Shown one piece after another: positions 48 through 20,255 of a DNA stretch of 20,255 nucleotides. The stretch covers positions 1 through 20,255 of the IMG/VR virus record IMGVR_UViG_3300025159_001077. The stretch is one strand, 5' to 3'. The notes under the pieces are model-generated. The model made no database searches. It was not told the DNA's origin and was given only the letters and a program-made list of their open reading frames with translations. The DNA is from a virus. The stretch's first letter is position 1, and each line of letters begins with the position of its first letter. The translations under genes were made by a program, and so were the position numbers.

Positions 48-93
48 GAATGGCAGAGTAGAGGAACGCGGGTAAAAAGGCGATTGTCCCAAT

Positions 94-145
94 AGCCCCG
101 TCTCGAGATGACATATCCATGTCGTCTTTTGAGGCGGGGCTTTTT
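94..145 (+). terminator. intrinsic terminator with long two-part stem
   Basis: The outer stem pairs 94-104 (AGCCCCGTCTC) with 131-141 (GAGGCGGGGCT) through one G.U wobble. The inner stem pairs AGATGACAT with ATGTCGTCT, again with one wobble. TTTTT follows at 141-145. This is a strong Rho-independent terminator shape. It lies between the promoter at 18-47 and the start codon at 170, so it either ends the upstream transcript, ends a short RNA of about 90 bases, or acts as an attenuator. A small alternative hairpin at 79-97 (GGC-g-ATTG, loop TCC, CAAT-a-GCC) would compete for the first bases of the terminator stem. Confidence 0.8.
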
Positions 146-169
146 CGTTGGTGCGGAGCGAAGAATCAT

Positions 170-1252: not shown

Positions 1253-1262
1253 GGAACACAAC

Positions 1263-1685
1263 GTGGCAACAGCACAACAGCCAGTCACGAAACTGCCGCA
1301 AAGGCGCAAGCCTAAAGCGCCGAGTGTTGACGGCGGTAAGTCAGTCGTTATCCCCAAGAAGACGCCTGGCAAATCCTATTTCAGCATTGACGTTGAGCAT
1401 GCGCTGCAATGGATAGCGTGGGTTGACAAGCCGGAACATTGCTACAGCTTCGATGGGTATTGGGAACTTGTCAATGCACGGATCAAGCAACTGGGATTCC
1501 GTCCGGACAAGAGTGTACTCAAGGCTCTTCCGGAGGTTGTCGGTTCCCCATCGTTCAACACAGGTGCCTTGGGGGCTTGGATTTCTTCTGCCGACGCCGA
1601 TCAGATCGATGCGTTGCAGAAAGTATACGCAGCTATGCGGTTGCGATACCGACATGCTAATTGGTTGAAACGCAAGAGAGGCTGA
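1263..1685 (+). CDS. small basic hypothetical phage protein
   Basis: A protein of 140 residues starting at GTG 1263. A Shine-Dalgarno AAGGA at 1251-1255 overlaps the stop codon of the previous gene and sits 7 bases before the GTG, so translation is likely coupled. Residues 1-33 are basic and Pro-rich (PQRRKPKAP, PKKTPGK), probably disordered. The rest looks like a compact domain with aromatic residues, and the C-terminus is again basic (NWLKRKRG). I do not recognise the family. Its place just before the prohead protease and major capsid genes suggests a head or scaffold-associated role, but that is context only. It ends one base before the next start codon. Confidence 0.7.
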   Translation: MATAQQPVTKLPQRRKPKAPSVDGGKSVVIPKKTPGKSYFSIDVEHALQWIAWVDKPEHCYSFDGYWELVNARIKQLGFRPDKSVLKALPEVVGSPSFNTGALGAWISSADADQIDALQKVYAAMRLRYRHANWLKRKRG

Positions 1686-1686
1686 T

Positions 1687-4866: not shown

Positions 4867-4884
4867 CCAATAGGAGTAGTTTAT

Positions 4885-6483: not shown

Positions 6484-6505
6484 TTTCTCACCTGTCGTAG
6501 CTTAT

Positions 6506-6535
6506 GCGGCGGGCCCGCTTCGGCCGGCCTGCCGC
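6506..6535 (+). terminator. C(UUCG)G hairpin after the capsid gene
   Basis: A 13-bp stem pairs 6506-6518 with 6523-6535, with one G.U wobble and one C-C mismatch. It is closed by the very stable C(UUCG)G tetraloop at 6518-6523. Only GAATTTG follows, not a clean U-run, so it may be a leaky terminator or an mRNA-stabilising 3' structure for the highly expressed capsid message. Confidence 0.6.
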
Positions 6536-6578
6536 GAATTTGTCCGAGCAATGAAATCTTTATCGTGGAGACCAGAAG

Positions 6579-7199
6579 ATGTCCGAGCAAACAGCGGTGG
6601 CGGCACCCACCAAGACGAAAGTCAATGTGCCAGAGTTTGAGATTGAGTTCGGCGACGACAGCAGCAATACCATCAGAGTGACAACGCTGGGGTTGAGCTT
6701 CCGCGGAAAGTGGTCCAGATACAAGCTTGACGGCAATGAAGTATCGCTCAGTGGTGTCATGACCATGATGCCGGACGTCCCTGGCTTGCACATGCGAGTC
6801 GTCCAGAAGGAGTCCAAGGTTGTCGTGACTGATCCGCTGGAGAAGAATCCTCAGCTATGCAGGCAGATCAGCCATATCCTTTCGCAAAAGATCGTCGGAT
6901 TCGATCGAGAAATAACACACGTGAATCCAACAACGACGGTCTTGGATGAGGATCGATTCAAGACCCTGCTGTACGAGCTGCGTGGTGCCATGCACTCGCC
7001 GCAGCCAACCTTTGAGGTTGTGTCTGGCCAGTTCCCGAGTGAGGAGCAGATTGATTCTCTTCCGGGGCGGGAACTGAATGACGTCGGCAACGACAGCAAG
7101 CGTAAGGCTAAATACAAAGATGACGCTGAGCCGTGGGTTGCGATTCTGGAGGCTATGCGGCAAAGCGGGGCGCTGCGAATGATGACCGGAGCTAATTAA
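6579..7199 (+). CDS. hypothetical protein between capsid and neck genes
   Basis: A 206-residue protein. GGAG at 6567-6570 lies 8 bases before ATG 6579. The N-terminal 15 residues are Ala/Thr/Lys-rich and likely flexible. A beta-rich stretch follows (VNVPEFEIEFGDDSSNTIRV, GLSFRGKWSRYKLDG), then a helical C-terminal half ending in EPWVAILEAMRQSGALRMM. I do not recognise it. Its place after the capsid gene and before the head-tail adaptor is where decoration or other head proteins are often found, but no motif supports a specific role. It is bracketed by hairpins at 6506-6535 and 7254-7298, so its transcript level may differ from its neighbours. Confidence 0.75.
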   Translation: MSEQTAVAAPTKTKVNVPEFEIEFGDDSSNTIRVTTLGLSFRGKWSRYKLDGNEVSLSGVMTMMPDVPGLHMRVVQKESKVVVTDPLEKNPQLCRQISHILSQKIVGFDREITHVNPTTTVLDEDRFKTLLYELRGAMHSPQPTFEVVSGQFPSEEQIDSLPGRELNDVGNDSKRKAKYKDDAEPWVAILEAMRQSGALRMMTGAN

Positions 7200-7253
7200 C
7201 GAGTGAGGAACAAGAAGCGGCACGTAGGATAACTGGGCGAAATGCTCGGACGG

Positions 7254-7298
7254 GGGCCGGCGTGCCAGGTTTGTTGTGACCTACACCCGGCCCTTTTT
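7254..7298 (+). terminator. strong intrinsic terminator
   Basis: The outer stem GGGCCGG (7254-7260) pairs perfectly with CCGGCCC (7287-7293). Inner pairs GTG/CAC and AGGT/ACCT continue it, with small bulges, and TTTTT follows at 7294-7298. It separates the capsid cluster from the neck and tail cluster. An open frame that could start at 7242 would begin upstream of this stem and read through it; the better start of the next gene is at 7317. Confidence 0.85.
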
Positions 7299-7316
7299 GA
7301 TATAGAGGAGGCAGCA

Positions 7317-7517
7317 ATGCTCAATAGCAGAATCAAGGCACAGAGACCATCCCGAATTGGCGAAGGTGGCGATTGTGTTTACTGCAATGGCGTTGGCCGA
7401 ATACGAATGAAGATTGCCGGGGGAGATCGCGGTAGGAGCAATCGTGCAAAGCAGACAAAAGTGTGTGCTTACTGTCGTGGGACTGGTAAGGCAACGAAAG
7501 GATATTTGACAAAGTGA
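7317..7517 (+). CDS. small DnaJ-type zinc-finger protein
   Basis: A 66-residue protein. AGAGGAGG at 7304-7311 sits 5 bases before ATG 7317, which decides this start over an in-frame one at 7242 ahead of the terminator stem. Two CxxCxGxG motifs, CVYCNGVG (20-27) and CAYCRGTG (50-57), are separated by 22 basic and Gly-rich residues. Two such motifs make one zinc site in DnaJ-family Cys-rich domains, where they bind unfolded protein. There is no J domain. The protein could be a small chaperone or an RNA- or DNA-binding factor for the structural genes; the zinc site is clear and the role is unknown. Its stop overlaps the next start (GTGA). Confidence 0.8.
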   Translation: MLNSRIKAQRPSRIGEGGDCVYCNGVGRIRMKIAGGDRGRSNRAKQTKVCAYCRGTGKATKGYLTK

Positions 7518-8326
7518 TAGCCAACCAGGACGACATCAAGTTGCTACTGGGGTTGTCCTCGTCCATTACGGATGAGGAGCAGGGGTTTCTGTCGTTGGTG
7601 CATCCATTGGCTGAAGGACTCGTCAAGCAATACCTCAAATACGATCCGGAGCAGAAGTCGCACACCGAATACTTTCCGAGGCACCTGCGGAGCGGCGGGC
7701 CAGGATACGATTACGAGGGGCGCTGGACGTCACGTAGTGGCCTGGCGATATGGGAATCGCGAGATAGCGACAACACGCTGCAGCTGACACATCTGCCATT
7801 GCGGCGCATCACTAGTGTGCGAATTGATACGGCAGCCAAGCATGGCGATGCTGCCAATAGCTTCGACTTAGACACAGTGCGCACCCAAGGCATAGATTAT
7901 TGGGGCGATTGGGATCAGACGAACGTGGGCTACAGCGGTGAGCTTTACTCATATGGCTCATGGCCGAGCGAGCCCGGAACAGTCAAGGTCGTGTACCGAG
8001 CGGGCTACTCGCCGGCTGAATTGCTGGGCACGGCGACTGAGGATGCACTGGTAGGCGATGTGATCACGACTGCCGGTGTGGACGGATCGGGAATAACGCG
8101 GGCTGTCCATATCACGGTGATCTCGCAGTTTCTAAAAAATATGGCATTGAAGAAGAAGGATATCGCCGGCTTCACACCTGGAGCACTGCTTGGCGAGCGA
8201 TTGGGCGACTATAGCTATCAGGTTGACAGGGGGACATTTGGGGCAGCAGGTCTTGCCGTCTCGCTGCCGGATGAGGCCAAGGAGCAACTCGAGGCATATA
8301 GACACTGGGGGCTCGCGAGACTATGA
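7514..8326 (+). CDS. head-tail adaptor (HK97 gp6-like connector)
   Basis: A 270-residue protein from GTG 7514, which overlaps the previous stop by 4 bases; AAAGGA at 7497-7502 is a plausible ribosome site. The N-terminus (NQDDIKLLLGLSSSITDEEQ, then HPLAEGLVKQYLKYD) has the helical pattern of gp6-like head-tail connector proteins, which form a ring under the portal. The middle (LPLRRITSVRIDTA, GTVKVVYRAGYSP) matches the beta-rich insertion often seen between the two helical parts in this family. It is longer than the 100 to 200 residues I expect for gp6, mainly through this insertion. The place right before a head-closure protein supports the call. Function is inferred from family resemblance and gene order. 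Confidence 0.7.
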   Translation: MIANQDDIKLLLGLSSSITDEEQGFLSLVHPLAEGLVKQYLKYDPEQKSHTEYFPRHLRSGGPGYDYEGRWTSRSGLAIWESRDSDNTLQLTHLPLRRITSVRIDTAAKHGDAANSFDLDTVRTQGIDYWGDWDQTNVGYSGELYSYGSWPSEPGTVKVVYRAGYSPAELLGTATEDALVGDVITTAGVDGSGITRAVHITVISQFLKNMALKKKDIAGFTPGALLGERLGDYSYQVDRGTFGAAGLAVSLPDEAKEQLEAYRHWGLARL

Positions 8327-8691
8327 GCCTGTTGGAAAAACTTCCGCACACGGTAAGCCACCTGCGCAAGACATACGCGAGGGACCAGTACATCGGCAAC
8401 ACGACGGACACAGAGGAGTTGGCCACGAGCGTGCGTTGCTGGATCCAGACAGTCGGACAGTCGGAGGTGCAGCAGTATGAGAAGGCGGACCAGTTGATCA
8501 CGCACAAGGTGTACTACAAAACGCAGCCGACATTGCGTCCTGGAGACCTGATTCGCGTGACGGCCGGGCCAAGCTATGTCGGAAAAGACTTCAACTTTGA
8601 ATCACTTGCTGATGCATCTGCCGGTTTAGGGAAGTTATTCAAGGTGATGGTGAACGAAGAGAATAACGTACCAGTTACGTTTGCAGGATAA
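8323..8691 (+). CDS. head-closure / head-tail joining protein
   Basis: A 122-residue protein whose ATG overlaps the previous stop by 4 bases (ATGA), typical of coupled neck genes. The segment VRCWIQTVGQSEV...LRPGDLIRVTAG is like the small beta-barrel head-tail joining proteins (SPP1 gp16 or HK97 gp7 type), which carry an R-x-GD-x-I turn. Such proteins plug the portal-adaptor channel after packaging and accept the tail. The length suits the family. The call rests on the motif and on gene order (adaptor, closure, gp10-like, tail terminator). Confidence 0.65.
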   Translation: MSLLEKLPHTVSHLRKTYARDQYIGNTTDTEELATSVRCWIQTVGQSEVQQYEKADQLITHKVYYKTQPTLRPGDLIRVTAGPSYVGKDFNFESLADASAGLGKLFKVMVNEENNVPVTFAG

Positions 8692-9296
8692 TGGCCATGC
8701 CGCGTTTTACCGTCGGAGGAGCAGTTACCGAGGGGATAGTGAAGGCCGGAGGAGTGCACTCGGCCGAAGCGTTGGGCATCCATTTGGAGCCACGCCTGGT
8801 AGGAGGAGTGACACTCGGAGCAGAGCGAGGAATTTCTAAAGGCACATTCCGAAGCGTGAAATCGGCTGTGTCGCGGATGTCCAAGATACGCACTGGCAAA
8901 ACAGAAGCCACTGTCGTCTGGAACGGCGAGAAGCTCGAGAAAATCCTAGAACTTGAATTCTCTAAGCGGATCAAGCTTGCTACGCAGCTGGTCAAGGACC
9001 AAGTAAAGCTGAATCTCAACAGGTCGGTGTTGAAGTATAAGGGGCCTATAAGCAAGAAGATACGAGTATTGCCAGAAAGCCGCTCGAGACCAGGCGAGTT
9101 TCCGCGAAAAGAGACTGGCGATTTGCAGAAGAATATCTTCGGCGAGACGCCACGTCCCGACTGGGGTGTTGTAGGGACAACGTATGGTTATGGCTTGTTG
9201 CTTGAGACGCAGATGAATAGATCGTACCTACGTCGGACGCTGCTTGAGATGCAGCCGAAGATCAGGCAGATACTGGTGAAGGCAGTTTCACTTTGA
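8691..9296 (+). CDS. HK97 gp10-like neck / tail component
   Basis: A 201-residue protein whose ATG shares one base with the previous stop (TAATG). A central helix (residues 83-110, KLEKILELEF...VKDQVKLNLN) is followed by PGEFPRKETGDLQKNIF (134-150) and VGTTYGYGLLLE (161-172). The order of helix, PG-x-P-x3-TG-x-L and VG-x3-YG-x3-LE is the signature of HK97 gp10-like proteins found between the head-closure and tail-terminator genes. The N-terminal 60 residues are Gly-rich and specific to this protein. The exact step in neck assembly is not established by sequence. Confidence 0.75.
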   Translation: MAMPRFTVGGAVTEGIVKAGGVHSAEALGIHLEPRLVGGVTLGAERGISKGTFRSVKSAVSRMSKIRTGKTEATVVWNGEKLEKILELEFSKRIKLATQLVKDQVKLNLNRSVLKYKGPISKKIRVLPESRSRPGEFPRKETGDLQKNIFGETPRPDWGVVGTTYGYGLLLETQMNRSYLRRTLLEMQPKIRQILVKAVSL

Positions 9297-9297
9297 A

Positions 9298-9477
9298 ATG
9301 ATACACCCAGTTGTCAAAGTATGGCAACATAGTATGGAGCAGGCGAGCAAAGACGAGCAGGAGCAGTCTATGGCCAAAAACACATGTGTTCGGTGTGGCA
9401 GGCCGGTAATCGGCATAGCGAGTACGCAGAACATCTTGTGCCGCGCCTGTGCAAGGGACTTGTTCGGTGATGACTGA
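9298..9477 (+). CDS. tiny zinc-ribbon-like protein
   Basis: A 59-residue frame fills the gap between two neck/tail genes. It starts two bases after the previous stop and its TGA shares one base with the next ATG (TGATG). The Cys pattern CVRCGRP...LCRAC gives two CxxC knuckles 14 residues apart, like a minimal zinc ribbon. An internal ATG at 9370 has a good Shine-Dalgarno (AGGAG at 9359-9363, spacing 6) and would give a 35-residue protein with the whole finger, so the true start is open. I chose 9298 because genes here are otherwise nearly gapless. Its role is unknown; it is the second zinc mini-protein in this neck cluster. Confidence 0.6.
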   Translation: MIHPVVKVWQHSMEQASKDEQEQSMAKNTCVRCGRPVIGIASTQNILCRACARDLFGDD

Positions 9478-11681
9478 TGGCTACGGAGGCAGGTACGTGG
9501 CGACTGGACGAGGCGATCGCGGCACACTGGGAATCAAGAGGGCTCGACACCGACTTCCGCGCCGAATGGCTCGATCCGACTGCGATGGAGTACGAGCCGC
9601 TGCACGACGGGATGGCCAGACCGGAGCCGCCAGGTCCGTACTGCGTGTACGAGAAAGACGAGCCGGAGATACTGGCGAGGATGACAGGGATTGACAACAG
9701 CGGAGACGATAGGGAGTTGCAACGGTGGACGTTTCGATTCAAGGTGCACGCACAGGATACGAGCAGCGAGAGCGCGAAGAGCATTGCTCAACGGCTGGCG
9801 AAGAAGATCGCTGCCGCCTTCGACCCCCACAATGCTATCCAATTCGATGGCGTTGCGCATGTCGTGACGGAGCGGGGCCCGGATTGGCACGACCAGGAGG
9901 GGGAACAAGAGGCGTCGTGGACGCTGCAGTTCTCGATTCTGGTGGACGCGACAGTGGGGGCCTTTGGCGGCGAGGCCGAGTTCAGTTCGAGCAGCAGCTT
10001 CTCCGAGACGTCGACCACATCAATGTCGTCATCCTCAAGTTGTTCGAGTGTTACGGAGCCTATTGCTGAGGAGGACGACGTGCTGGATTTCGGCGACATC
10101 GGCGGAGTATACGACAGCCAGGCGGCGGCCGTGGCCAACAGGGCAGCACTGATCGCATATCTTGCCACCCGTGTCAACGAGCCTGTCGAGCTGGGGTTCC
10201 GCGGACCTGTGGATTATCTCGACAGCAAACGTCAGCCGGCCAATGTCTACCTGGACCTGTCAGCTGGGGCGATCGCGATCACGGTGGGCGGGGCCGGAAA
10301 TATGTCGCACCTGACGTTCTTCGGTGGCTCGAAGATCTTCGGCGTGAATGCGGCCACGCCGGCAACGCCGATCTTCCAGATCACGCGCGGGTCGGGGCAG
10401 ATGCCTCGTGTTGTGATTCGAGGCCTGGCTTTCGAGTCCGATGGGTCCGTGATCAAGTTCGTCTACGGGGGATCGGGTGTCGTGCTGGAGGATGTCAAGA
10501 TCGATGACTTCACTGGGGCTGGGTCAATCGACCACGAGGACTGGACCGACGTGGAGGCCGAGACCTGCAGCTACGGCGTCTGGCTGGAGGATGCCGACGG
10601 GGCCCGGATCCAGAACCTGCAGATCAAGCAGGGTAGCGGCCACGGGATCGTGGCCACCAGGCTGCATGCCGGGGACGTCGATGCCCGGATTCAGTTGTGT
10701 GAGGGTGCCGGATTCAAACTGCAGCAGTTCAACGGCAATCGTGCTCACCTCTGGGCCGAATCCTGCAATGGCTACGGGCTTCTGGCCCGTGACTGCGGCG
10801 GCGACCGGCGGAGCGGAGGTGTCAAGGTCGCGAACGATGGGGCGCCGAATGACTGGAGGGCATGGTTTGAGGCCAACAACGGGCGAGGCACGAGCCACGG
10901 GGCCAGCGGCTACAGGTTCTCCCAGTTTAAACTGGCCAACTGCACGAGGATCAAGATGGCTGGCCACAGCGGCTGGCGGGACAATCAGGCGAGGCTCGAC
11001 AGAATATCTCGGTTGCGGAATGAGTTCGTCGAGGACTACTACCTAGACCCGAGCGTGGATCCTGACTTGTATTTGGTAGGTGCAGCCGGGGCCGGCGACG
11101 AATACCTAGTCAACGTCGCGAACATCACGCTGCCGCCGGCTGGGTTCGGCAACGCGAGTTGCACGAACTGGGACACGGTTTGGACAGACCCCGGCGACAG
11201 GCCGACAGCGACGATCGTTGGGAGCGGGACGGCGAGCGACCCGGAGCGGATTCGGATCACTTGGCCCGGCGGCTGCTTCGACGCCACGAGTGGGACAGAC
11301 ACAGCCTACTGGAGACCGTTCTGGGCCGTGGCCTTGAGCTCGCCTGGAAGCTATTTTTTCACTGCTCAAATCAAGGCAACGACATCCGTCGCAGGGACAT
11401 ATTGTGCATCTCGGGAAAGCTTATCGGTGGCGAATCGCCAGACGAACTCGCTTGGCAGCTTCTCGATTGCACCAGTGTCTGGGGCCATCACGGGGCTGAC
11501 GCTTTGGGACACGCACAGCCGTTGGCTCAGCGGTTCATTTACGGTGGACGATATCCGGTCTGACATCTCGCCACAATTTGCCGCTTGGGATAACGGCATG
11601 CAAGATCTGGACGGGGACGCCAGTCAAGACACCGAAATTATTGTGGATATTTACCAACTGAGGCTTTACAAGTTTGTGTGA
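9477..11681 (+). CDS. tail-terminator-like domain fused to beta-helix spike
   Basis: A 734-residue protein. Residues 1-161 closely match the free-standing protein at 11684-12190 and occupy the gene position of a tail terminator. Shared blocks include GLDT, ARPxPPGPYxVYEK, ESAKSI, RLAK, AFDP and RGPD. Residues 169-192 are a short Ser/Thr linker. Residues about 200-515 show the repeated short turns of a right-handed parallel beta-helix (VVIRGLAFESDGS, VVLEDVKIDDFTG, ARIQNLQIKQGSG), the usual fold of phage tailspikes. Residues about 545-734 look like a beta-sandwich, perhaps carbohydrate-binding. There is no catalytic motif I can name. The likely role is a spike held to the virion by a tail-terminator-like ring. 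Start ATG 9477 has no good ribosome site and is probably coupled. The beta-helix DNA is GC-richer than the later beta-helices. Confidence 0.75.
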   Translation: MATEAGTWRLDEAIAAHWESRGLDTDFRAEWLDPTAMEYEPLHDGMARPEPPGPYCVYEKDEPEILARMTGIDNSGDDRELQRWTFRFKVHAQDTSSESAKSIAQRLAKKIAAAFDPHNAIQFDGVAHVVTERGPDWHDQEGEQEASWTLQFSILVDATVGAFGGEAEFSSSSSFSETSTTSMSSSSSCSSVTEPIAEEDDVLDFGDIGGVYDSQAAAVANRAALIAYLATRVNEPVELGFRGPVDYLDSKRQPANVYLDLSAGAIAITVGGAGNMSHLTFFGGSKIFGVNAATPATPIFQITRGSGQMPRVVIRGLAFESDGSVIKFVYGGSGVVLEDVKIDDFTGAGSIDHEDWTDVEAETCSYGVWLEDADGARIQNLQIKQGSGHGIVATRLHAGDVDARIQLCEGAGFKLQQFNGNRAHLWAESCNGYGLLARDCGGDRRSGGVKVANDGAPNDWRAWFEANNGRGTSHGASGYRFSQFKLANCTRIKMAGHSGWRDNQARLDRISRLRNEFVEDYYLDPSVDPDLYLVGAAGAGDEYLVNVANITLPPAGFGNASCTNWDTVWTDPGDRPTATIVGSGTASDPERIRITWPGGCFDATSGTDTAYWRPFWAVALSSPGSYFFTAQIKATTSVAGTYCASRESLSVANRQTNSLGSFSIAPVSGAITGLTLWDTHSRWLSGSFTVDDIRSDISPQFAAWDNGMQDLDGDASQDTEIIVDIYQLRLYKFV
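9981..10052 (+). repeat. Ser/Thr-rich linker 2 (short)
   Basis: Twenty-four residues, mostly Ser and Thr with one Cys, join the tail-terminator-like domain to the beta-helix. It is much shorter than the other tracts. Confidence 0.85.
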
Positions 11682-11683
11682 CC

Positions 11684-12190
11684 ATGGCTATCCCAAACAC
11701 CAGAGGAAGCTGGACGCTTGACGGAGCCATCAACCAGCGGTGGGACGACGCCGGCCTGGACACGACGATCAAGCTGGAGTGGCCTGCAGCGGACAGATTG
11801 ATTGACAAGTACCAGGCGTTGAACGACGGGTTTGCGAGGCCTACACCTCCAGGCCCGTACGTAGTGTACGAAAAGTCGATCCCGGTCGTGATGGCCCACA
11901 TGAGCGGCCACACTGCGGCGCAGCGGGAAGACCAGTTGCAGCAGATACTCGTGGCGTTCCGGATTCACGCCAAAAGTACTGCGGCCGAGTCTGCCAAGTC
12001 GATCTGCATCAGACTTGCGAAAGAGGTAGCCGAGGCATTTGATCCAAATACGGCACCTTGGGAGATGACAGACGACAAGATAGTGATCGTGAAGCGAGGA
12101 CCTGACTTCCACGCGAGAGAAGACGACGATGAATGGGTGTGGGTGCTGCAGTATGACGTACTGATTGACGCGGAGTATCTGCAGGCGTGA
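11684..12190 (+). CDS. tail terminator protein (stand-alone paralogue)
   Basis: A 168-residue protein starting at ATG 11684; a GTG at 11678 overlapping the previous stop is the alternative start. It matches residues 6-161 of the preceding gene product at roughly 40% identity by eye, with the same blocks (GLDT, ARPTPPGPYVVYEK, AESAKSI, RLAKE, AFDP, RGPDFH). The size, mixed alpha/beta pattern and place after a gp10-like gene fit a tail terminator, the ring that caps the tail tube and docks to the neck. Without a Ser linker or distal domain, this is the better candidate for the essential copy. The family call comes mostly from gene order; the duplication is directly visible. Confidence 0.7.
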   Translation: MAIPNTRGSWTLDGAINQRWDDAGLDTTIKLEWPAADRLIDKYQALNDGFARPTPPGPYVVYEKSIPVVMAHMSGHTAAQREDQLQQILVAFRIHAKSTAAESAKSICIRLAKEVAEAFDPNTAPWEMTDDKIVIVKRGPDFHAREDDDEWVWVLQYDVLIDAEYLQA

Positions 12191-12193
12191 CAA

Positions 12194-12742
12194 ATGGCCA
12201 ACCGTTCGGCGGAGAGCGATATCCAGCTTCTGGTCAAGTCGACCATGATGCTCACTGTCGACGATGGATGGCGGACGAGCGTAAAGGTGGGCGGCTGGGT
12301 GTTGAAGCAGCATTTGCTGACTGGAGTGGAATCCGATCAGGCGAATCGAGGTTGGGGGTACGAGGGTACGATAGCGAGCGGGAATGTGGTTGACTTAGAC
12401 CTCTACGACATGGCTGGACTGAACACCGGCGGCGGGGCTGGCCGTGATGGGCTCGGCCAGGCTCTGGCCATGGAGGAGATCGTATCTCTGGGGATCGCGA
12501 AGATTTCCGGTAGCGGGCAATTGGAGGTCATGCCTACACAGCCAGCCAACTATCTGACATGGGTACCGCCACTCACGGTCGCGGATGGAAATGCCCTGAA
12601 GACTGACGGCGTGGCGCTCATGCATCAGTCGCACACAGATGCGTTTGATGTCGAGGATGGCTCGAGTCACGTTTTGCGTCTGGGTGCCAACGGCGGCGAC
12701 GTGACATACCGTGTCTACCTAATCGGCCGCCATGACGACCAG
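12194..12742 (+). repeat. shared ~185-residue virion domain, copy A (N-terminal)
   Basis: Residues 1-183 of the 1046-residue protein. Key shared blocks are RSAES, DQANR, DLDLYD, GRDGLG, LEVMPTQPANYLTWVP, TVADGNALKT, EDGSSH, GANGGD and YLIGRHDD. Copies B and C carry nearly the same blocks in the same order. Confidence 0.85.
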
Positions 12743-15334
12743 TTGTCCTCCAGCAGCACGCTGTCGACATCTTCACTCAGTTCCATGACGACATCTGTCT
12801 CTGGTAGCTCTGTCAGCAGCTCGAGCTCTCTCTCCGTGTCGTCCTCGAGTTCGTCCCTCTCAGTTTCATCATCGTGCTCTTCTCTGTCTATGTCTTCATC
12901 CTCGAGCTCGCTATCCGTTAGTTCCTCGAGCAGCAGTCTATCCGTGTCGTCAAGTTCGTCGAGCTCGCAGTCTATCTCGTCTGTGACGATAACTTCATCC
13001 TCGCAAAGCGTAAGCTCATCCAGCTGGTCCAGTTTCAGTTCGAGCCTGAATTCATCCTGCAGCACGATTGCCAGGACCAGTTCTTCAACATCGAAGAGTT
13101 GTTCGAGCCAAACGATGTCCACATCGAGCTCGATGGAATCCGGTGTTACGTCCTCGTCCAGCAGCACGGCTGGGAGAACTACGTCTAGTACAGTCGGCCA
13201 GTCGACAACGTCTGTCTCGAGCAGCGTGGGGCGGACTACCTCGAGCTCCAGCACGGTAGCCAGCGTGACATCATCGACTGTCGCCAGGACGACGTCGTCG
13301 AGCTCAAGCTCCGAAAGCTCATCCTCAAGTACCGTTGCGAGATCGACATCAAGTACCGTGGCGCGATCTACTTCCAGCACAATCGGCGAAACTACGTCTA
13401 GCACGGCTGCTTCACTGACCTCCTCCAGTTCGTCCACCTCTTCGACAATCGTTGAAACAACGTCCACGAGCTCGTCAATCACAGGATCCATTGAGAATCT
13501 GCAGGCTACCGTGTGGGCCTACAACCAGATCAGCCTCTCGTGGGACGCAACCGGGGTGAACTGGTACGACGTGGAGGTGCAGGACGGTGGCGGGCGGTGG
13601 AACCACGTGCGGAGTGTGTACGACAACGGGGTGGATATGGCCGGCTTCGATGCGGCCACGACATACAGTTTTCGCGTGCGAGGAGTTGAGAATACTTGGC
13701 CGGACTGGAGCTACACCGACTACTCGGCTGTGGTGACGCCTACGACCAGTGCATATCAGGCGGCTCCCACGTTCACCGTCACGGACGACACATCTTGGAA
13801 CACGGCCTATGTCAACGCAGAGGCTGGCGACGTTATAGAGATTCTGCCGGGAACAGTCCTGACAGAGAAGACGGCGCCGCCATGGCGAGTTGGATCCGGT
13901 AAGTTCGTCACAATCCGATCCGCTGCCATGGCATTACTGCCAGGTTTTGACCAGCGGATTGGACCAAGTGATATCGGCAACATGCCGATGTTTCGCACAC
14001 GACAGCAAGTTGCCGGCGCAATGCATGTTGGCCCAGGAAGTCACCATCTCTCTTTTGAGGGTATTCGTTTTGAAGCCGATCAACCGACGCAATACCGCGT
14101 GAATTACATCGTTGTGTTTAACGAAGCTTTCCAAGATGTTAACAACGATCCGTATGACATCGAGTTTCATCGGTGCTGGGTCGAGAGCCCGAGGCCAGGT
14201 ACAGTTTTCGGTGCGACGACATTTACGGAATGCGATTCAGGATTTTACAGTTATGGTGCAGATCGCGTTGTGATCAAAGACACTTATTGCAAGGAGCTGT
14301 CTGCAGAAACGCAAGATGCGCCATCGATTGGTGGGACGCGCGGTAAGGAATGGGCAGTAAACAACTGCCATCTTGAGGGGAGCATGCCAGTGTTCTGGGG
14401 CGGTGCGAGCCATCCAGAAACTGACGTGTTGCCAGACTTGCACAGCTATCGCCGCAATCACATCGTCAGGCCTACATATTGGATTCCGACGGAGGCCGAC
14501 TACGACGGGCGATCCCGCAACCGCAAAAACATGTTTGAAATCAAATATGGCCAGCGGTTCCTGATTGAGGACAACTATTTCCAACGTGGTTATTGCACAG
14601 ATTCTTATGTCGTGATTCTGACGCCACGTGCTGACATTTCCTGGTCTGGCATTTACGACGTGCAGATTCGATACAACCACTTCGACACGATTGACGGAGG
14701 ATTCCGGATTTCAGGAAGCGATGGATTGTACTCGCCACCGAATGATGGCTTTGCAACAAAGCGACTAACAGTATCGCACAATTTGATCGAGGATTTTGGT
14801 AAACTTTCGCAGCTCGGCAAGCGAGAATACGAGTTTAATACATCCTCGCCAGAATGGGATCGTTTAGAGGACATCTGTTTCCGCCGCAACAGTTGGGTAA
14901 CTGACGAGTTGTCCGGTCTGACGCCTTGGTTTTCACCTACCAATGCTGTTGCGCTTTGGGAAGATGGCTTCGGGCTTGTCGGGCAATTCATTTACGAGAA
15001 CAACATCACATGTGGACTACTCGGCAGAGACGGTGGTGCGAATGACATAACTGTATTGTCATATGTCATAGGAGATAATCGCTGGACCTTTGAGAATAAC
15101 GTAATGGTCCTAGCAGATTCGAGCCTCAACAATTCGACAAAATTCCCAAACAACTATAATCTTGCAACCGGTCCTGGCGACTCTGGCTACAACATGGATG
15201 GTGTTGGGTTTGTTGACTGGAGAAACGGCAATTGGCGACTTCATGAAACAAGTGCGCATTACAGCGCACAAGGCTGCGACAACTCAGTTTACGATCGCAC
15301 GGCCCACTGTATTGATGGAGACTGGAGCGCGTAA
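12194..15334 (+). CDS. modular spike: shared domain, Ser linker, FnIII-like, beta-helix
   Basis: A 1046-residue protein. Residues 1-183 are the domain also found at 16790-17350 and 17366-17917. Residues 184-432 are a Ser/Thr linker with many SSTVARSTSS-type motifs. Residues about 433-518 look like a fibronectin type III domain (ISLSWDATGVNWYDVEV, then TYSFRVRGVEN). Residues about 525-1046 form a long right-handed beta-helix resembling secreted bacterial beta-helix proteins: KNMFEIKYGQRFLIEDNYF at 778-796, then VVILTPR, IYDVQIRYNHFDTIDGG and LTVSHNLIEDFG. The helix could bind or cleave polysaccharide, but I see no certain catalytic residues. There is no clear Shine-Dalgarno; the ATG is 3 bases after the previous stop. 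The GC content drops within the beta-helix part. The likely role is a receptor-binding or surface-anchoring appendage. Confidence 0.75.
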   Translation: MANRSAESDIQLLVKSTMMLTVDDGWRTSVKVGGWVLKQHLLTGVESDQANRGWGYEGTIASGNVVDLDLYDMAGLNTGGGAGRDGLGQALAMEEIVSLGIAKISGSGQLEVMPTQPANYLTWVPPLTVADGNALKTDGVALMHQSHTDAFDVEDGSSHVLRLGANGGDVTYRVYLIGRHDDQLSSSSTLSTSSLSSMTTSVSGSSVSSSSSLSVSSSSSSLSVSSSCSSLSMSSSSSSLSVSSSSSSLSVSSSSSSSQSISSVTITSSSQSVSSSSWSSFSSSLNSSCSTIARTSSSTSKSCSSQTMSTSSSMESGVTSSSSSTAGRTTSSTVGQSTTSVSSSVGRTTSSSSTVASVTSSTVARTTSSSSSSESSSSSTVARSTSSTVARSTSSTIGETTSSTAASLTSSSSSTSSTIVETTSTSSSITGSIENLQATVWAYNQISLSWDATGVNWYDVEVQDGGGRWNHVRSVYDNGVDMAGFDAATTYSFRVRGVENTWPDWSYTDYSAVVTPTTSAYQAAPTFTVTDDTSWNTAYVNAEAGDVIEILPGTVLTEKTAPPWRVGSGKFVTIRSAAMALLPGFDQRIGPSDIGNMPMFRTRQQVAGAMHVGPGSHHLSFEGIRFEADQPTQYRVNYIVVFNEAFQDVNNDPYDIEFHRCWVESPRPGTVFGATTFTECDSGFYSYGADRVVIKDTYCKELSAETQDAPSIGGTRGKEWAVNNCHLEGSMPVFWGGASHPETDVLPDLHSYRRNHIVRPTYWIPTEADYDGRSRNRKNMFEIKYGQRFLIEDNYFQRGYCTDSYVVILTPRADISWSGIYDVQIRYNHFDTIDGGFRISGSDGLYSPPNDGFATKRLTVSHNLIEDFGKLSQLGKREYEFNTSSPEWDRLEDICFRRNSWVTDELSGLTPWFSPTNAVALWEDGFGLVGQFIYENNITCGLLGRDGGANDITVLSYVIGDNRWTFENNVMVLADSSLNNSTKFPNNYNLATGPGDSGYNMDGVGFVDWRNGNWRLHETSAHYSAQGCDNSVYDRTAHCIDGDWSA
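12743..13489 (+). repeat. Ser/Thr-rich linker 3 (about 249 residues)
   Basis: This is the tract with the most SST[VAI][AG]x[TS]-type units, including two consecutive STVARSTS copies and variants STVARTTS, STIGETTS and STAASLTS. Cys occurs at a few places. It separates copy A of the shared domain from the FnIII-like domain. Confidence 0.9.
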
Positions 15335-17353
15335 ATGTCGAATGTGATCAAAACAATCGGTTCTGGTGGAACATTTGCTAGTGTTCAGGCGTGGGCTGAT
15401 GACATAAATACAAATGCGAATGGCTTCTATATCTCTGGTGATATCGCTATCGGCCAGGTATTAAATGACTTGTCGACAGCCAGCGGAAGCCATGTATCAT
15501 TTGCTGCAGCCAATGGCACGAATCCGATCTCCAAGGCGATACTGGAGCCATCATCTGGAAATGCAAATAATGGCATTGTTGCAGGCGGCATAGTTCTAAC
15601 CCAGACTAACGGAGATAACTATGGGATATACCTTGCTGCTGCCGTAGATTATCACGTAGAAATTCGAGATCTGGAGATTTACCGCAATCAGTCGTCTGGC
15701 GGGACAAACGACTTTAGCCTGATACACAATGCGTGCACCAATTCCATTGAGTTAATAGTCAAGCGATGCATTGTCCATACTAATCAATTTGGTGCAGCAA
15801 CAGGAACGCCCATTGGAATCAAGGGTATTTCGGCTGGGGCTACAACACGTGCAGTGCGGTGCCTGGTCTTCGACATCGGAAATCCAACAACCGGATTTGG
15901 GATTGGAATTGCCGATGCGGTGACGATTCACAACTGCTGTGTGTATAATTGCGCTGGCAACGGCATCGGCAGTGACAATATCTTCCACGATGTTCGCAAC
16001 TGCATATCGATGGATAACGGCTCCACGGACTACGCTGGTGCGTGGGCCGCCACAAAAGATCGGAACATGTCATCGGATGCCACAGCGCCGGGCACGACTG
16101 TCTACATTAATAAAGTCAGTACAGCGATCTGGACAGCTCCTGGTAGTGACGATTTTACACTCCAGCTCGGAACTGACGCCATCGGAACCGGCCAGGACTT
16201 GGGCAGCGGCTACGAACAAAACATCGACATCAAACATGACTTGATTGCCGGAGAGGTATGGGACCTTGGGGCATTCCAGTCTGGCGAGATGAGCACGTCC
16301 AGCACGGTGGCTCGCTCTAGTTCCAGCACAGTGGCACGCTCGACATCCAGTACCGTGGCTCGTAGCTCGTCCTCGCAAACTGAGTCTGAGTCGTCTCTCA
16401 GTACCGAAAGCAGCTCGACGACTTCGTTCTCATCTTCCAGCACGGCGGCGATGACGACGTCTTCCTCGTCCTCGAGCAGCAGCTCTACCAGCTCGTCCTC
16501 GAGTTCGTCTTCTTCAACTTCCTCGTCCTCGTCTTCTAGTTCGTCCTCAACTTTGTCTACGTCCTCTTCAATTTCTAGCAGCAGTTCTACTAGCTCGTCC
16601 TCTTCGACGGCCGGGCAAGTCACTTCGTCGTCATCTTCTTCTGCCAGCAGTTCGTCATCTTCGTCAACGTCATCCACGTCTTCATCGTCGACGTCCTCAT
16701 CGTCATCGCTGTCGACTTCGTCTTCGTCATCTGTTTCTAGTTCGTCGTCTTCATCGTCGACGTCTTCATCTTCTTGCAGCGGAACTGACCAGGCAATTGG
16801 TACCCGCACACTTTCGGCATCGATCAAGTTGTTCGTGTCATCGACGATTAAGAACGTGATTGACGACGGTTCATCTGCAACCGTATCGGCCATGAAGGCT
16901 CGCATACTGGACTTGGTACTGACGACGGGCATCGCGGACAACAAAGCCACGCGGGCGTGGCGACTGAAGGATGGGGTAATCGGAGCAGGATCCACCAAGG
17001 ACATTGACTTGTACGATCTGGTTGGCGAAAACATCGGGGCTGGAGACGGGCGTGATGCATTGGGCCAACTCATGGTCCAGAAGCAAGTCGTTGTATTTAT
17101 TGTCGAAAAGACTGGCGGTGCGGGACGACTCGAGTTAATGCCCACCAACCCGACAAACTACTGCACATGGGTGCCGACACTTACGGTGGCTGACGGCAAT
17201 GCGCTGAAAACTGGCGGCATGGCCATGTTGGTGCAGCCTAAGGCCTCGGCCCTGCCTGTCGTGGACGCCTCGAGCCATCAGATGCGGTTGGGTGCGGTTG
17301 GCGGCGCCGTGACGTACGACCTCTGGCTTGTATCTCGACACTACGGGACCTAA
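15335..17353 (+). CDS. modular spike: beta-helix, Ser linker, shared domain at C-terminus
   Basis: A 672-residue protein with the module order reversed relative to the previous gene. Residues 1-318 are a parallel beta-helix (YHVEIRDLEIYRNQ, IELIVKRCIVHTN, AVTIHNCCVYNC, IFHDVRNCISMDNG) ending in DLGAFQ, a common last rung in bacterial beta-helix proteins. Residues 319-479 are a Ser/Thr linker that opens with three STVARS units. Residues 486-672 are copy B of the shared domain. ATG 15335 directly follows the previous TAA, with GGAG at 15324-15327 as ribosome site. The first residues (IGSGGTFASVQAWADDI) resemble the entry to pectate-lyase-like beta-helices. The likely role is a virion appendage. 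If the shared domain is the virion anchor, this protein would be mounted by its C-terminus and the previous one by its N-terminus. Confidence 0.75.
   Translation: MSNVIKTIGSGGTFASVQAWADDINTNANGFYISGDIAIGQVLNDLSTASGSHVSFAAANGTNPISKAILEPSSGNANNGIVAGGIVLTQTNGDNYGIYLAAAVDYHVEIRDLEIYRNQSSGGTNDFSLIHNACTNSIELIVKRCIVHTNQFGAATGTPIGIKGISAGATTRAVRCLVFDIGNPTTGFGIGIADAVTIHNCCVYNCAGNGIGSDNIFHDVRNCISMDNGSTDYAGAWAATKDRNMSSDATAPGTTVYINKVSTAIWTAPGSDDFTLQLGTDAIGTGQDLGSGYEQNIDIKHDLIAGEVWDLGAFQSGEMSTSSTVARSSSSTVARSTSSTVARSSSSQTESESSLSTESSSTTSFSSSSTAAMTTSSSSSSSSSTSSSSSSSSSTSSSSSSSSSSTLSTSSSISSSSSTSSSSSTAGQVTSSSSSSASSSSSSSTSSTSSSSTSSSSSLSTSSSSSVSSSSSSSSTSSSSCSGTDQAIGTRTLSASIKLFVSSTIKNVIDDGSSATVSAMKARILDLVLTTGIADNKATRAWRLKDGVIGAGSTKDIDLYDLVGENIGAGDGRDALGQLMVQKQVVVFIVEKTGGAGRLELMPTNPTNYCTWVPTLTVADGNALKTGGMAMLVQPKASALPVVDASSHQMRLGAVGGAVTYDLWLVSRHYGT
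16289..16771 (+). repeat. Ser/Thr-rich linker 4 (about 161 residues)
   Basis: It begins with three near-identical STVARS units, then runs of 5 to 10 Ser broken by Thr, with STAAMTTS and STAGQVTS inside. It joins the beta-helix to copy B of the shared domain. Confidence 0.9.
16790..17350 (+). repeat. shared ~185-residue virion domain, copy B (C-terminal)
   Basis: Residues 486-672 of the 672-residue protein. The blocks TIKNVIDDG, DIDLYDL, GRDALG, LELMPTNPTNYCTWVP, TVADGNALKTGG, SSHQMRLGAVGG and VSRHYG align with copies A and C. It has drifted further at its N-terminal part. Confidence 0.85.
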
Positions 17354-17365
17354 CAGGAGAAACAT

Positions 17366-17917
17366 ATGTCGACACGCAGTGCCGAGAGCGAAGTAAGACT
17401 GAGCTTTTCTGCCACGATCAAAAACACGTTGGACGATGGGCAAGTTGCTCAAGTGACACTCGGCGATGACAAGGGGTTCGCAATTAAACTGCATAGCGGC
17501 GTAGATGCGGACCAGGCTAATCGTGCTTGGGCGCGCACGGGGCATACGCTTACGTCTGGGAATACGGAGGATATCGACCTCTATGACTTTTCCGACATCG
17601 ATATCGGGGCCGGGCTCGGAAACGACGGACTTGGATTGCCGATGGCGTTGGAGGAAGTAGTCACGTTCTGCATCAAGCAGACATCGGGTGCTGGGCGACT
17701 CGAATTGATGCCCACCAATCCAGCCAACTATTGCACCTGGGTGCCAACAATGACGGTCGCTCTTGGATCGGCATTGAAAACAGGCGGAGCTTTCCTGCTC
17801 CACCAGCCAGATGAGGATGCATTAGACGTTGAGGATGGCTCGTCACACATGATGCGTGTCGGGGCCAATGGCGGAGATATAGTTTATGATCTGTACCTGA
17901 TAGGGCGGCACGACGAT
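17366..17917 (+). repeat. shared ~185-residue virion domain, copy C (N-terminal)
   Basis: Residues 1-184 of the 258-residue protein. The ordered blocks LYDFSDIDIGAG, NDGLG, LELMPTNPANYCTWVP, LKTGGAFLLHQ, EDGSSHMMRVGANGGD and DLYLIGRHDD match copies A and B. Confidence 0.85.
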
Positions 17918-18142
17918 GAGGCATCAAGCTCCTCGAGCTCGTCCACGTCCTCCTCTTCCTCTTCCTCCACTTCCAGTTGTTCGACAAGCACGCCTTCATC
18001 GCAATCCACGTCCTCGACTTCAAGTTCTTCGAGTTCAACATCCTCGAGTTCATCGTCATCATCATCGTGCACATCGTCGTCTTCGACAGCGGCCCGCACG
18101 ACTTCATCTTCATCGAGCAGCTCGTGCTCGAGCACAACCTAA
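17366..18142 (+). CDS. shared virion domain with Ser/Thr tail, no distal domain
   Basis: A 258-residue protein with a strong AGGAG at 17355-17359, 6 bases before ATG 17366; this is the clearest ribosome site among the modular proteins, so it may be the most highly made. Residues 1-186 are copy C of the shared domain, very close to copy A (both have RSAES, DQANR, EDGSSH and YLIGRHDD). Residues 187-258 are Ser/Thr-rich, contain one STAARTTS unit and several Cys, and end SSSCSSTT. Nothing follows the tail. The layout parallels the first Ser-rich gene at 170-1252. It is directly before the tail tube gene. It could be a decoration protein of the tail or head, or the base form from which the larger fusions arose. 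Confidence 0.75.
   Translation: MSTRSAESEVRLSFSATIKNTLDDGQVAQVTLGDDKGFAIKLHSGVDADQANRAWARTGHTLTSGNTEDIDLYDFSDIDIGAGLGNDGLGLPMALEEVVTFCIKQTSGAGRLELMPTNPANYCTWVPTMTVALGSALKTGGAFLLHQPDEDALDVEDGSSHMMRVGANGGDIVYDLYLIGRHDDEASSSSSSSTSSSSSSSTSSCSTSTPSSQSTSSTSSSSSSTSSSSSSSSSCTSSSSTAARTTSSSSSSSCSSTT
17924..18139 (+). repeat. Ser/Thr-rich tail 5 (72 residues)
   Basis: A low-complexity Ser/Thr tail with one SSTAARTTSS unit and Cys residues near the end. It ends the protein without a distal domain. Confidence 0.9.
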
Positions 18143-18162: not shown

Positions 18163-18690
18163 ATGAGCGGAGCGACAGTATTAGCTGGTGCGGGAGGCGC
18201 GGTTGTTGCGCAGCGCATCATAGGAGGCGCCTCCTATCTTGTTGCCAGAATTAAGCAATGGAATGCCACGATCAGCTGTCTCGAAGCTGCGTGGGGAGAT
18301 TCAGATTCTGGTGGCGCGACGAATCGTGTCGGCGGAAGAGAGGACATGACTGGTACGATCACAGGCGTGCCTGATATGGACAATCCCCAACACAACAACT
18401 TCTTGTTTGGCGGTGGTAGCAATCCGAACGACAAGAACATTGTGGCCTTACTGCTTTGGGAAGACGCTAACGAAGGTTTAACTGCAGAAGACTACTGGTA
18501 TCTACCTCGGGCATTGATCAGCCAATTAACATGGGGCATCGATAACGATACGAAACTCCCCATGGATTGGACAGCTAACTTCGGCGCTGACAGCTTGTTC
18601 TACAGGCCACGCCAGGTTGGTACGATGCCAACAGCCACCGCGGCTACTATTTTGAACGAGGGTCTACCAGTCGGGACTACGCCAGCCTAA
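18163..18690 (+). CDS. major tail tube protein (probable)
   Basis: A 175-residue protein with AAGGAG just upstream of ATG 18163. The N-terminal 30 residues are Gly/Ala-rich and hydrophobic. The rest is beta-rich with WNATISCLEAAWGDSDSGG, a DMTGTITGVPD turn and DWTANFGADSLFYRP near the end. The DMTGTI turn and overall size are like tail tube proteins of siphoviruses. The gene order of tube, two-frame chaperone and tape measure is the strongest support. The hydrophobic Gly/Ala start could instead suggest membrane contact, but it is short and unlikely to span a membrane. Confidence 0.65.
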   Translation: MSGATVLAGAGGAVVAQRIIGGASYLVARIKQWNATISCLEAAWGDSDSGGATNRVGGREDMTGTITGVPDMDNPQHNNFLFGGGSNPNDKNIVALLLWEDANEGLTAEDYWYLPRALISQLTWGIDNDTKLPMDWTANFGADSLFYRPRQVGTMPTATAATILNEGLPVGTTPA

Positions 18691-19549: not shown

Positions 19550-20255
19550 ATGGCATTCGAGTTGGCAACGGCCTTCGTGAGCATTGAGATCGCACAGCAG
19601 AAATTCAGCCAGCAATTGCAGAAAATCAAAGGCGATTTCCTCGGAACCGTCACGTCCTTTACCAAGATGGCTGGACTGATAGGGCTTCCACTCAGTGCCT
19701 TGGCCGGTTTTTCAAAACTCAAGGAAGTCTTGACAGAGAGCGTAAGTCTAGCCAAGGAAGCTGGCCGAGTTCACCGGGAACTAGCTCAAGCTGTCGAGTA
19801 CATTGGTAATCGGACTAGTTTTACCACGAGGCAGATTGAAGCATACGCGAAGAGTTTGCAGGATATCACTGGAGTTAGCAAAACTCAGATCGCAGCTGCC
19901 ATGACGCAACTCTTGCGATTCGGGGAACTCAGCGAAGCAGTAATGAAGAAAGCCACCGACGTTGCGACCGATCTATCTAAGAGTCTACATCTCTCAGTGG
20001 AAGACGTAGCATCTTCACTTGGTCGAGCACTTATGGATCCTAGTCGCGGCTTCGCAACGCTTCGCAGATTCAACATTGTTCTCAAGGAGGATCAAAAGGA
20101 ATACATCGAACTTCTCCAAAAGACTGGCCGGGTAGAGGAAGCCAGGATGGCAATGCTCTCGTTCGTTAATGTTTCTCGCGCACGAGCAACGGCAGGCGAA
20201 CGACGCGCCATTGAGATCCAGCAGACCAAAGAAAATATTGGAGGTTTCTGGCAGA
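19550..20255 (+). CDS. tape measure protein, N-terminal part (runs off the window)
   Basis: An open frame of 235 codons without a stop to the window edge. ATG 19550 has AGGAA at 19536-19540, 9 bases upstream. The N-terminal residues (FVSIEIAQQKFSQQLQKI) are helical, with a hydrophobic patch at about 40-54 (MAGLIGLPLSALAGF). The block VATDLSKSLHLSVEDVASSL, then GRALMDPSRGFATLRRFNI, is typical of the N-terminal region of prophage tape measure proteins, where an L-x-x-AL-x-DP-x-xG-x-x-x-LR pattern recurs. The tape measure sets tail length and is ejected during infection. Tape measures are usually many hundreds of residues, so most of this gene lies beyond the window. Confidence 0.85.
   Translation, partial: MAFELATAFVSIEIAQQKFSQQLQKIKGDFLGTVTSFTKMAGLIGLPLSALAGFSKLKEVLTESVSLAKEAGRVHRELAQAVEYIGNRTSFTTRQIEAYAKSLQDITGVSKTQIAAAMTQLLRFGELSEAVMKKATDVATDLSKSLHLSVEDVASSLGRALMDPSRGFATLRRFNIVLKEDQKEYIELLQKTGRVEEARMAMLSFVNVSRARATAGERRAIEIQQTKENIGGFWQ

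Follow-up and report, generated by a model that had tools for sequence, protein, structure and literature searches.

How can one protein domain stand at the N-terminus of one phage protein, at the C-terminus of the next and alone in a third, and what might such proteins do on the virion? The question is raised by three adjacent genes, here referred to as A, B and C, of a 20,255-base virus record from IMG/VR (IMGVR_UViG_3300025159_001077, positions 1–20,255), which was analysed over its whole length and is called the window below. We found that the arrangement is real, modular and widespread in uncultured phages, and that the reversed polarity of B looks like a gene fusion local to one lineage. 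The most likely explanation, to which we give a probability of about 0.6, is that the domain is a virion-surface anchor at the neck or tail top which carries a Ser/Thr stalk, was duplicated with the addition of further modules, and became fused in B; the proteins would then be neck or tail-top whiskers with swappable modules.

Homology and architecture of the three copies

The open reading frames (ORFs) of A (12194–15334, 1046 aa), B (15335–17353, 672 aa) and C (17366–18142, 258 aa) were as given in a preliminary description of the locus, and all-against-all BLASTP of the 17 window proteins confirmed its claim that they share a homologous domain of about 185 residues. A and C showed 54% identity over 187 columns (E 1e-53), B and C 50.5% over 182 columns (E 4e-57), and A and B 45.6% over 182 columns (E 6e-36). 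The domain covers residues 1–184 of A, 488–671 of B and 1–185 of C, and it is N-terminal in A, C-terminal in B and the sole domain, with a Ser tail, in C. The Ser/Thr-rich runs also lie where they had been placed, at residues 180–435 of A, 318–492 of B and 179–258 of C (from the identical genes of contig L001 and the window linkers). Since genes A and B were uninterrupted in three more IMG/VR contigs (L001, L002 and L005), the fused ORF of B is not a sequencing slip. A fourth copy, missed by the preliminary description, is cut by the 5′ edge of the window (Table 1). It is represented in contig G005, which matches window positions 1–6903 at 100% and has a domain gene (L062, E 2.4e-55) immediately 5′ of g1, a gene for another protein with a long Ser/Thr tail.

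The partners of the domain had been described as FnIII-like and beta-helix heads. The FnIII assignment in A was weakly backed (Pfam fn3 E 0.0025, under the cut-off; FN3con in the PDB, E 0.0044), and residues 432–523 of A matched phrog_20454 (E 4e-4). Beta-helices were suggested by matches of the heads of A and B to PF13229 (E 0.028 and 0.022, respectively) and, because the scores of 14.5 and 14.8 bits are under the cut-off of 25.9, we speak of probable beta-helices in both. A single-sequence structure model of B residues 1–319 failed (pLDDT 37).

Contexts of the domain in related phages

The final scan of viral contigs gave 61 loci, and our table, from which near-duplicates had been removed beforehand, holds 64 domain genes on 51 contigs. 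Three of the 51 contigs, namely the window, G005 (L062) and G002 (L113), represent one phage population; two loci without a Ser/Thr run (L057 and L058) were fetched outside this table. A Ser/Thr run, defined as 60% Ser+Thr over 20 residues, was present in 51/64 domain genes and was 36–501 aa long (median 83). The domain was N-terminal in 61/64 genes and C-terminal in 2/64 (B of the window and B of G002), and the second copy of L094 had an ambiguous start (1/64). C-terminal polarity is confined to the lineage of the window.

The standard form is the domain with a Ser tail, its gene lying between a putative tail terminator gene and a tail tube gene. This slot, with terminator, domain gene(s) and tube contiguous, was found in 37 of the 51 contigs, 32 with a single domain gene and 5 with a tandem array. 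It was cut by the contig end in six others, one contig was the upstream piece G005, and in seven contigs without a Ser run neither neighbour was recognised by the terminator and tube profiles, themselves built on sequences of this group. In L116 there are two copies that lack a Ser run, one in the slot and one 5′ of the terminator gene, between the capsid and terminator genes.

The domain proteins are modular, as several unrelated partners are attached to the one domain in relatives. In L018/L072 (one contig), the domain is followed by a 500-residue Ser stretch and Gly_rich_2 (PF21722, 46.7 bits against a cut-off of 24.3, E 5e-12); in L108, by Ser and a C-terminal part of about 200 aa, for which no usable family match was obtained; and in the slot copy of L107, by Ser, 91 aa and Ser again. 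The second copies of L096 and L094, the latter cut by the contig end, have their domain interrupted, ahead of its last strands, by an insert of about 120 aa. The remaining extra copies (L111, L088, the third of L108, and L122) carry a Ser tail or little more. Relatives do not keep the domain in one fixed context, then, though its polarity is fixed outside the lineage of the window. As for the earlier picture of interchangeable heads in either polarity, modularity was found, as were both polarities in this lineage, but most relatives have an N-terminal domain with a headless Ser tail. The same phages also encode further long proteins with internal Ser runs (L111:2-2149, L108:3821, L109:4772 and L064:486-2402), which gave no convincing family match where searched.

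The positions of some fused and extra copies would suit another reading, in which each fused copy is simply a tail-tip fibre or spike of the ordinary kind and the domain is a generic fibre-base fold whose operon position is incidental. In L018/L072 the fused copy is located a good way downstream, as are the extra copies in L108 and L111; those of L072 and L111 are past the tape measure gene, which is the usual place of tail-tip genes, and Gly_rich_2 occurs in tail-fibre proteins. We consider this reading unlikely, as nearly all phages of the group have the headless slot copy, which lies 5′ of the tube gene, as do A and B.

History of the copies and the probable fusion in B

In a quick IQ-TREE tree of 62 rows, with SH-aLRT support alone, the slot-type and Ser-tailed copies formed one clade (support 99; 53 rows, including L114 with its very short tail), and A and B were sisters (support 91); support was weak on 26/59 inner branches. 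The extra copies of other phages (L088, L096, L122, L108, L111 and L072) were scattered near different tips, and on this tree extra copies arose repeatedly. Extra copies mostly sat on longer branches than the slot copy from their own phage (window, L111, L072, L088 and L096); in L122 and L108 the branch of the slot copy was equal or longer.

At the place of the initiator Met, where relatives read MGTR, B has Ile (codon ATT) followed by GTR. Because this ancestral start position reads ATT, B looks like a gene fusion: a domain gene that once stood free was apparently linked, by way of a Ser stretch, to the beta-helix gene lying upstream, presumably with a step from ATG to ATT.

Linkers as possible points of exchange

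The preliminary description took the linkers for hinges at which domains had been swapped. Window positions 1–8000 were identical to G002, and positions 6823–16419 showed 41 mismatches to it, 32 of which lie at 9959–10293, a patch that comprises the Ser linker of g10 (Table 1) and the start of the g10 head. From 16420, within the B linker, identity dropped from about 100% to about 67–85% across B and C, as measured per 100 bases, and it was lower still beyond them. A crossover at or shortly before 16420 would produce such a step. A step inside a linker was seen in 1/9 profiled related pairs and in none of the other eight (of which L082/L115 ends in the tail and is uninformative); 19 related pairs were listed, and the identical ones and L094/L096 were excluded from profiling. 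Since the B linker makes up about 4% of the compared length, a single crossover event is weak evidence. When contig G001 was compared with the window, mosaic patches were found in the A head and in the tape measure gene, that is, outside linkers; the short substitution clusters of this comparison, at 13882–13974 and 19690–19835, stand amid near-identical DNA and suggest micro-mosaicism or strain mixing in the assembly.

A recent swap through DNA homology of the linkers within the window was considered and rejected: the longest common words were 10–17 nt, about the codon-shuffled level, and three of ten linker pairs exceeded their own shuffles (10 per pair) by 1–2 nt. What remains in favour of hinges is the one identity step, and the other pairs, the patches outside linkers and the short shared words speak against them.

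The Ser/Thr stalks and their shared dialects

The step in the B linker may itself be a chimeric assembly in low-complexity DNA. Joined to this is the view that the Ser stretches are unselected repeat DNA that arose by slippage. Assemblers may join strains in low-complexity DNA, the step was seen there in one pair only, and tail length does change: between the near-identical L103 and L104 the difference is 13 residues (39 gap columns). The codons told otherwise. In 40 tails, from the 51 genes with a run (Ser 75.7%, Thr 7.1%), identical adjacent Ser codons made up 306/1779 pairs (17.2%), where 24.8% was expected from each tail's codon use. A slippage origin of the runs was rejected on this scrambling beyond expectation, although the g1 and g10 window linkers had no deficit of repeated codons. 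As the fusion in B is moreover present in four contigs, we hold slippage with chimeric assembly to be quite improbable. The window linkers employ all six Ser codons (five in the short g10 linker), with an entropy of 2.29–2.51 bits vs 2.42 in nine folded genes. Judging from codon usage, the stalk is maintained at the protein level.

The motif ST[AVI][AGV]xx[TS], picked after viewing the sequences, occurs 5 times in the tail of g1, 10 times in A, 5 times in B, once in C and not in g10, against residue-shuffle means of 0.01–0.22; the single copy in C is within the shuffles' maximum. Across 23 phages (the window represented by its A linker), g1 and domain tails had a 4-mer similarity of 0.645 within and 0.359 between phages, with 0/10,000 permutations as high, and the own partner tail ranked first in 11/23. 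Without the last 14 residues, the values were 0.603 and 0.333, and the own partner was first in 7. Both tails had Trp (SSS[ST]W or SSSW) near the end in 9/21 phages and not both in the other 12, and the C-terminal similarity of the two had a permutation p of 0.0008 (window and L107 excluded). By these peptide comparisons, in which kinship is ignored while related phages share dialects, the Ser tails of two unrelated proteins of one phage, g1 and the domain protein, share a peptide dialect. In L071, L076, L098, L099 and others, the ending SSSSW[ST] common to both tails is written in different codons.

In matched 5-mers of g1 and domain tails of the same phage, codon sharing was 0.353 vs 0.278 predicted from codon frequencies, and 0.233 between phages. 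Because this agreement is above expectation, old DNA exchange between tails may explain part of the likeness. Among the papers listed when an open-access library was searched for Ser-rich phage virion tails, none describes such tails, judged by titles and abstract starts. The preliminary description had included neither the dialect nor the link of Ser tails with the sugar-transfer-like genes described below.

Family, fold and proposed place in the virion

By its profile matches, the domain lies on the margin of phrog_22694, as a divergent member of this phage family of 170 residues, which has no assigned function. C matched the profile with E 5.1e-7 over positions 4–167 and A with E 6.5e-4; B had no match at E 0.1 and is counted in the family because it is homologous to C. 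Intermediates were L014 (E 7e-21) and L013 (E 1.7e-10), core members from Microcystis, Streptomyces and Bradyrhizobium phages had E 1e-53 to 1e-60, and eight named phage records (Hiyaa counted twice) matched L014 or the Bradyrhizobium form. The small phage family with a YD...IG strand that the preliminary description mentioned is thus a real one, with gp9 of Streptomyces phage Hiyaa as an example. It shares with our domain the sequence family, a C-terminal strand of the type YD-I-x-(V/L)-(I/V)-G (YDLYLIG in C; YRVYLIG in A and YDLWLVS in B each deviate at one place) and a location in the head, neck and tail module. Unlike our proteins, the members of the three annotated phages that were opened are single genes of 166–169 aa with no Ser run or tail and no partner domain. 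When named phages were searched, C (threshold E 0.01), the copies of L003 (E 1) and L017 (E 0.01) and two capsid proteins (E 1e-5) all remained without a match; plasmids gave none at E 0.01, and two scans of bacterial genomes gave no confirmed relative. The host might, as a guess, belong to the Planctomycetes.

An AlphaFold2 model from 15 sequences was all-beta (pLDDT 81.4, pTM 0.76). Seven viral models matched it at E ≤1e-3, all without a functional name, and a PDB sequence search with the domain gave nothing below 0.1 (best 0.22). For BppU, there was no noteworthy Pfam or PDB sequence match; it was absent from the fold matches listed, which excludes nothing. Among PDB folds, Foldseek placed human GGCX chains at ranks 1–5 and the HFTV1 turret chain 8qpg_TD at rank 12 (E 0.02), the latter aligning to the domain model with Z 5.6 and rmsd 4.2 over 105 residues. 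Since Z < 8 may, by the tool's own caution, reflect a mere common arrangement, we did not use PDB fold matches as homology; the GGCX, plant-virus coat and cupin matches were taken as common beta-sandwich arrangements and left unused.

Because the standard gene lies between the putative tail terminator and tail tube, we propose that the all-beta domain serves as an anchor on the virion surface, most likely at the neck or tail top. Acquisition of a C-terminal Ser/Thr stalk would have made headless flexible whiskers of it. After many duplications, some copies would have received modules, probably in contact with the host surface, that extend the stalk or interrupt the domain. In the lineage of the window, a beta-helix gene lying upstream and ending in Ser-rich sequence would have fused in frame to a domain gene minus its start codon, which would give the reversed polarity. 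Ring assembly, host binding by the heads and the order of the fusion events we infer.

Several points weigh against this proposal. Location in the virion is inferred from gene position, and the names terminator and tube come from weak PHROG matches. In the three annotated phages the family member stands elsewhere in the head-to-neck region: two genes downstream of the capsid gene in Hiyaa (gp9), after the capsid and connector genes in the Bradyrhizobium phage, and between the protease and the head-tail adaptor in the Microcystis phage; the slot therefore cannot fix the place in the virion. Foldseek gave no PDB match at E < 1e-3, and the best VIA-align Z was 7.3, with spore-appendage and GGCX chains tied. 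The beta-helix heads are based on sub-threshold matches, the heads of A and B, when sought across IMG/VR, matched near-identical contigs alone, and C-terminal polarity comes from one near-identical group of four contigs.

The same gene positions in the Hiyaa, Bradyrhizobium and Microcystis phages would suit an anchor on the capsid shell, as a decoration or turret base, with the Ser tails as head fibres. So would the first copy of L116, between the capsid and terminator genes, and the HFTV1 turret chain listed by Foldseek. We find this doubtful, as the turret match is in the range that the tool calls common and the Ser-tailed slot copies lie between terminator and tube, several genes off the capsid gene.

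Comparison with known systems

For an anchor at the neck or tail top, the nearest known plan is that of the neck passage structure (NPS) proteins of lactococcal 936 phages, and by analogy the domain proteins may work alike. In the account of PMC6669499, their first ~180 residues are nearly identical and are followed by a stalk and an interchangeable remainder, which falls into seven groups and includes carbohydrate-binding modules as well as a class with a beta-helix. The proteins are modelled there as a collar at the tail–capsid connector, with a predicted BppU-like N-terminus and coiled-coil stalk (PMC6669499). Here, distinct partner modules are present in A, L018/L072, L108 and L107, and these may bind the host. 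Unlike the NPS proteins as described there, ours have a Ser/Thr-rich stalk, which by its composition is not a coiled coil; they occur as several paralogues in some phages, are mostly headless and are reversed in one case. Membership is not claimed, since the stalk differs and kinship to BppU is only a possibility.

Two looser parallels can be drawn. The HFTV1 turret, a base hexamer with a head trimer (PMC12494034), resembles the domain proteins in having a base that bears a host-surface module and in the weak fold similarity of the base chain. In HFTV1, base and head are separate proteins on capsid hexamers, and the term "serine-rich" is absent from the main text of the report (PMC12494034). 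The capsid fibres of Agrobacterium phage 7-7-1 are, as reported, also flexible first-contact appendages, but they emerge from capsid pentamers (PMC12796354). The Milano collar, as far as the account in PMC10491603 goes, is no closer match.

Sugar-transfer-like genes in the relatives

Relatives carry, 3′ of the tail module, MptE-like, cupin (E 6e-7) and glycosyltransferase-like (GT-like) genes, and L071, L091 and L095 also have an FkbM methyltransferase (E 1.5e-15 in L071). Such cassettes lie at L071:16028-18958, L095:17373-20423, L064:3960-7662 and elsewhere. We write MptE-like for a resemblance, since the PF01973 cut-off of 34.6 bits was not reached: the best match had 23.3 bits (E 6e-5, L095), followed by L088 (E 0.0036) and L110 (E 0.18), with no match in L108 and none at 0.01 in L013 and L017. 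The GT-like protein has an invariant WLK-DTD stretch, which we take to be a GT-A DxD motif, and no noteworthy Pfam match. A PDB sequence search gave nothing for the MptE-like protein and matches at E 0.04 for the GT-like one, which were not used.

A census of 32 records, picked mainly by length, found the MptE-like gene in 18/32 and the GT-like gene in 17/32. Among records of at least 30 kb, both genes were present in 15/16 with a Ser-tailed domain (two of the 15, G012 and G013, being near-identical) vs 0/5 without a run (one of which, G033/L114, has a very short Ser tail); the sole miss of the 16, G034, extends just 1.8 kb past the domain gene. The 11 smaller records had the MptE-like gene in 3, and G002 and G005 had neither gene. 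In L108 and L111, the MptE-like gene directly follows the Ser-tailed domain gene. Ser tails and sugar-transfer-like genes are thus associated in these genomes. Against a special link, the records without a run are more distant phages, and lineage alone could explain the association; in addition, three contigs without a run (L117, L119 and L121) bear a different transferase gene, one of GT2 type (PF00535; L014, which is one contig with L117, matched at E 4e-6).

Tentatively, and with the odds against it, the Ser/Thr tails could be acceptors for phage-encoded O-glycosylation, the cassette putting a sugar brush on two or more unrelated virion proteins, g1 and the domain protein, with the dialects as its recognition motifs. 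The players would be an MptE/Maf-like protein and the DxD-bearing transferase-like protein, to which some phages would add the cupin and the FkbM methyltransferase. Unrelated tails of one phage would then evolve together because the dialects are recognition motifs. The GT2 genes of the phages without a run slightly lowered our odds for this reading.

Gene order and further features of the window

On the + strand, the window encodes first g1, a prohead protease-AAA ATPase fusion, the major capsid protein and adaptor- and neck-like proteins. These are followed by g10, g11 (terminator-like), A, B, C, the putative tail tube, a gene at 18705 that we take, by position alone, for a tail chaperone, and the tape measure gene, within which the window ends (Table 1). 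Homologues of g1 in relatives lie 5′ of the capsid gene. The naming of g11 agrees with its counterpart in a relative (L004:4732), which matched a tail terminator with E 3.6e-4, and the tube is named by position and homologues, its sole PHROG match being a weak one obtained with a relative's protein (phrog_10528, E 0.056).

The terminator-like domain is itself doubled in g10 and g11 (9477–12190; 45% identity, BLASTP E 3e-40), and the same pair occurs in L003. This second duplication, also missed by the preliminary description, is a parallel case of a duplicated structural domain of which one copy bears a head; the g10 head matched PF13229 with E 0.033, under the Pfam cut-off. Separately, a single 1059-aa ORF at 1687–4866 joins a prohead protease (PF04586, E 1e-4, residues 281–383) to an AAA+ ATPase (PF00004, E 2e-19, residues 620–734), likewise as one ORF in G002 and G005; to our knowledge, such a fusion is unusual for a head-maturation protein.

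Table 1. Positions of the domain copies, their linkers and heads, and related genes in the window
Feature	Position	Strand	Evidence
End of fourth domain copy, seven codons (ESSSSS, stop)	1–21	+	Translation; contig edge cuts copy; whole in G005
g1: ~107-residue domain of unassigned function and 270-residue Ser/Thr tail	119–1252	+	
g10: terminator-like domain (residues 1–158), short Ser linker (165–198), possible beta-helix	9477–11681	+	
g11: putative tail terminator, upstream border of domain-gene slot	11678–12190	+	phrog_1232 tail terminator, E 0.039
Copy A of domain, N-terminal within gene 12194–15334	12194–12745	+	BLASTP, alignment; phrog_22694, E 6.5e-4
Ser/Thr linker of A, with ten ST[AVI][AGV]xx[TS] motifs	12731–13498	+	
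Head of A: FnIII-like, then probable beta-helix	13496–15334	+	Weak profile matches
Head of B: probable beta-helix, N-terminal	15335–16291	+	PF13229, E 0.022, under cut-off
Ser/Thr linker of B	16286–16810	+	Identity step vs G002 from 16420
Copy B of domain, C-terminal; ATT (Ile) at 16796 where relatives start with Met	16796–17350	+	
Copy C of domain, conserved slot copy, opens gene 17366–18142	17366–17920	+	phrog_22694, E 5.1e-7; synteny
Ser/Thr tail of C, including stop codon	17900–18142	+	
Putative tail tube, downstream border of slot	18163–18690	+	Position, homologues

Implications

If the anchor-and-stalk reading is true, these genes would be an easily traced natural display system, with one anchor, one type of stalk, several heads and both polarities, in dozens of uncultured phages. 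They would also offer a tag for tracing adhesion modules in viral dark matter, to be sought past the Ser runs beside the terminator-tube slot. Of most interest is the cause of the dialect that unrelated Ser tails of a phage have in common; together with the linked sugar-transfer-like genes, the shared dialects would make a testable case for glycosylated phage virions.

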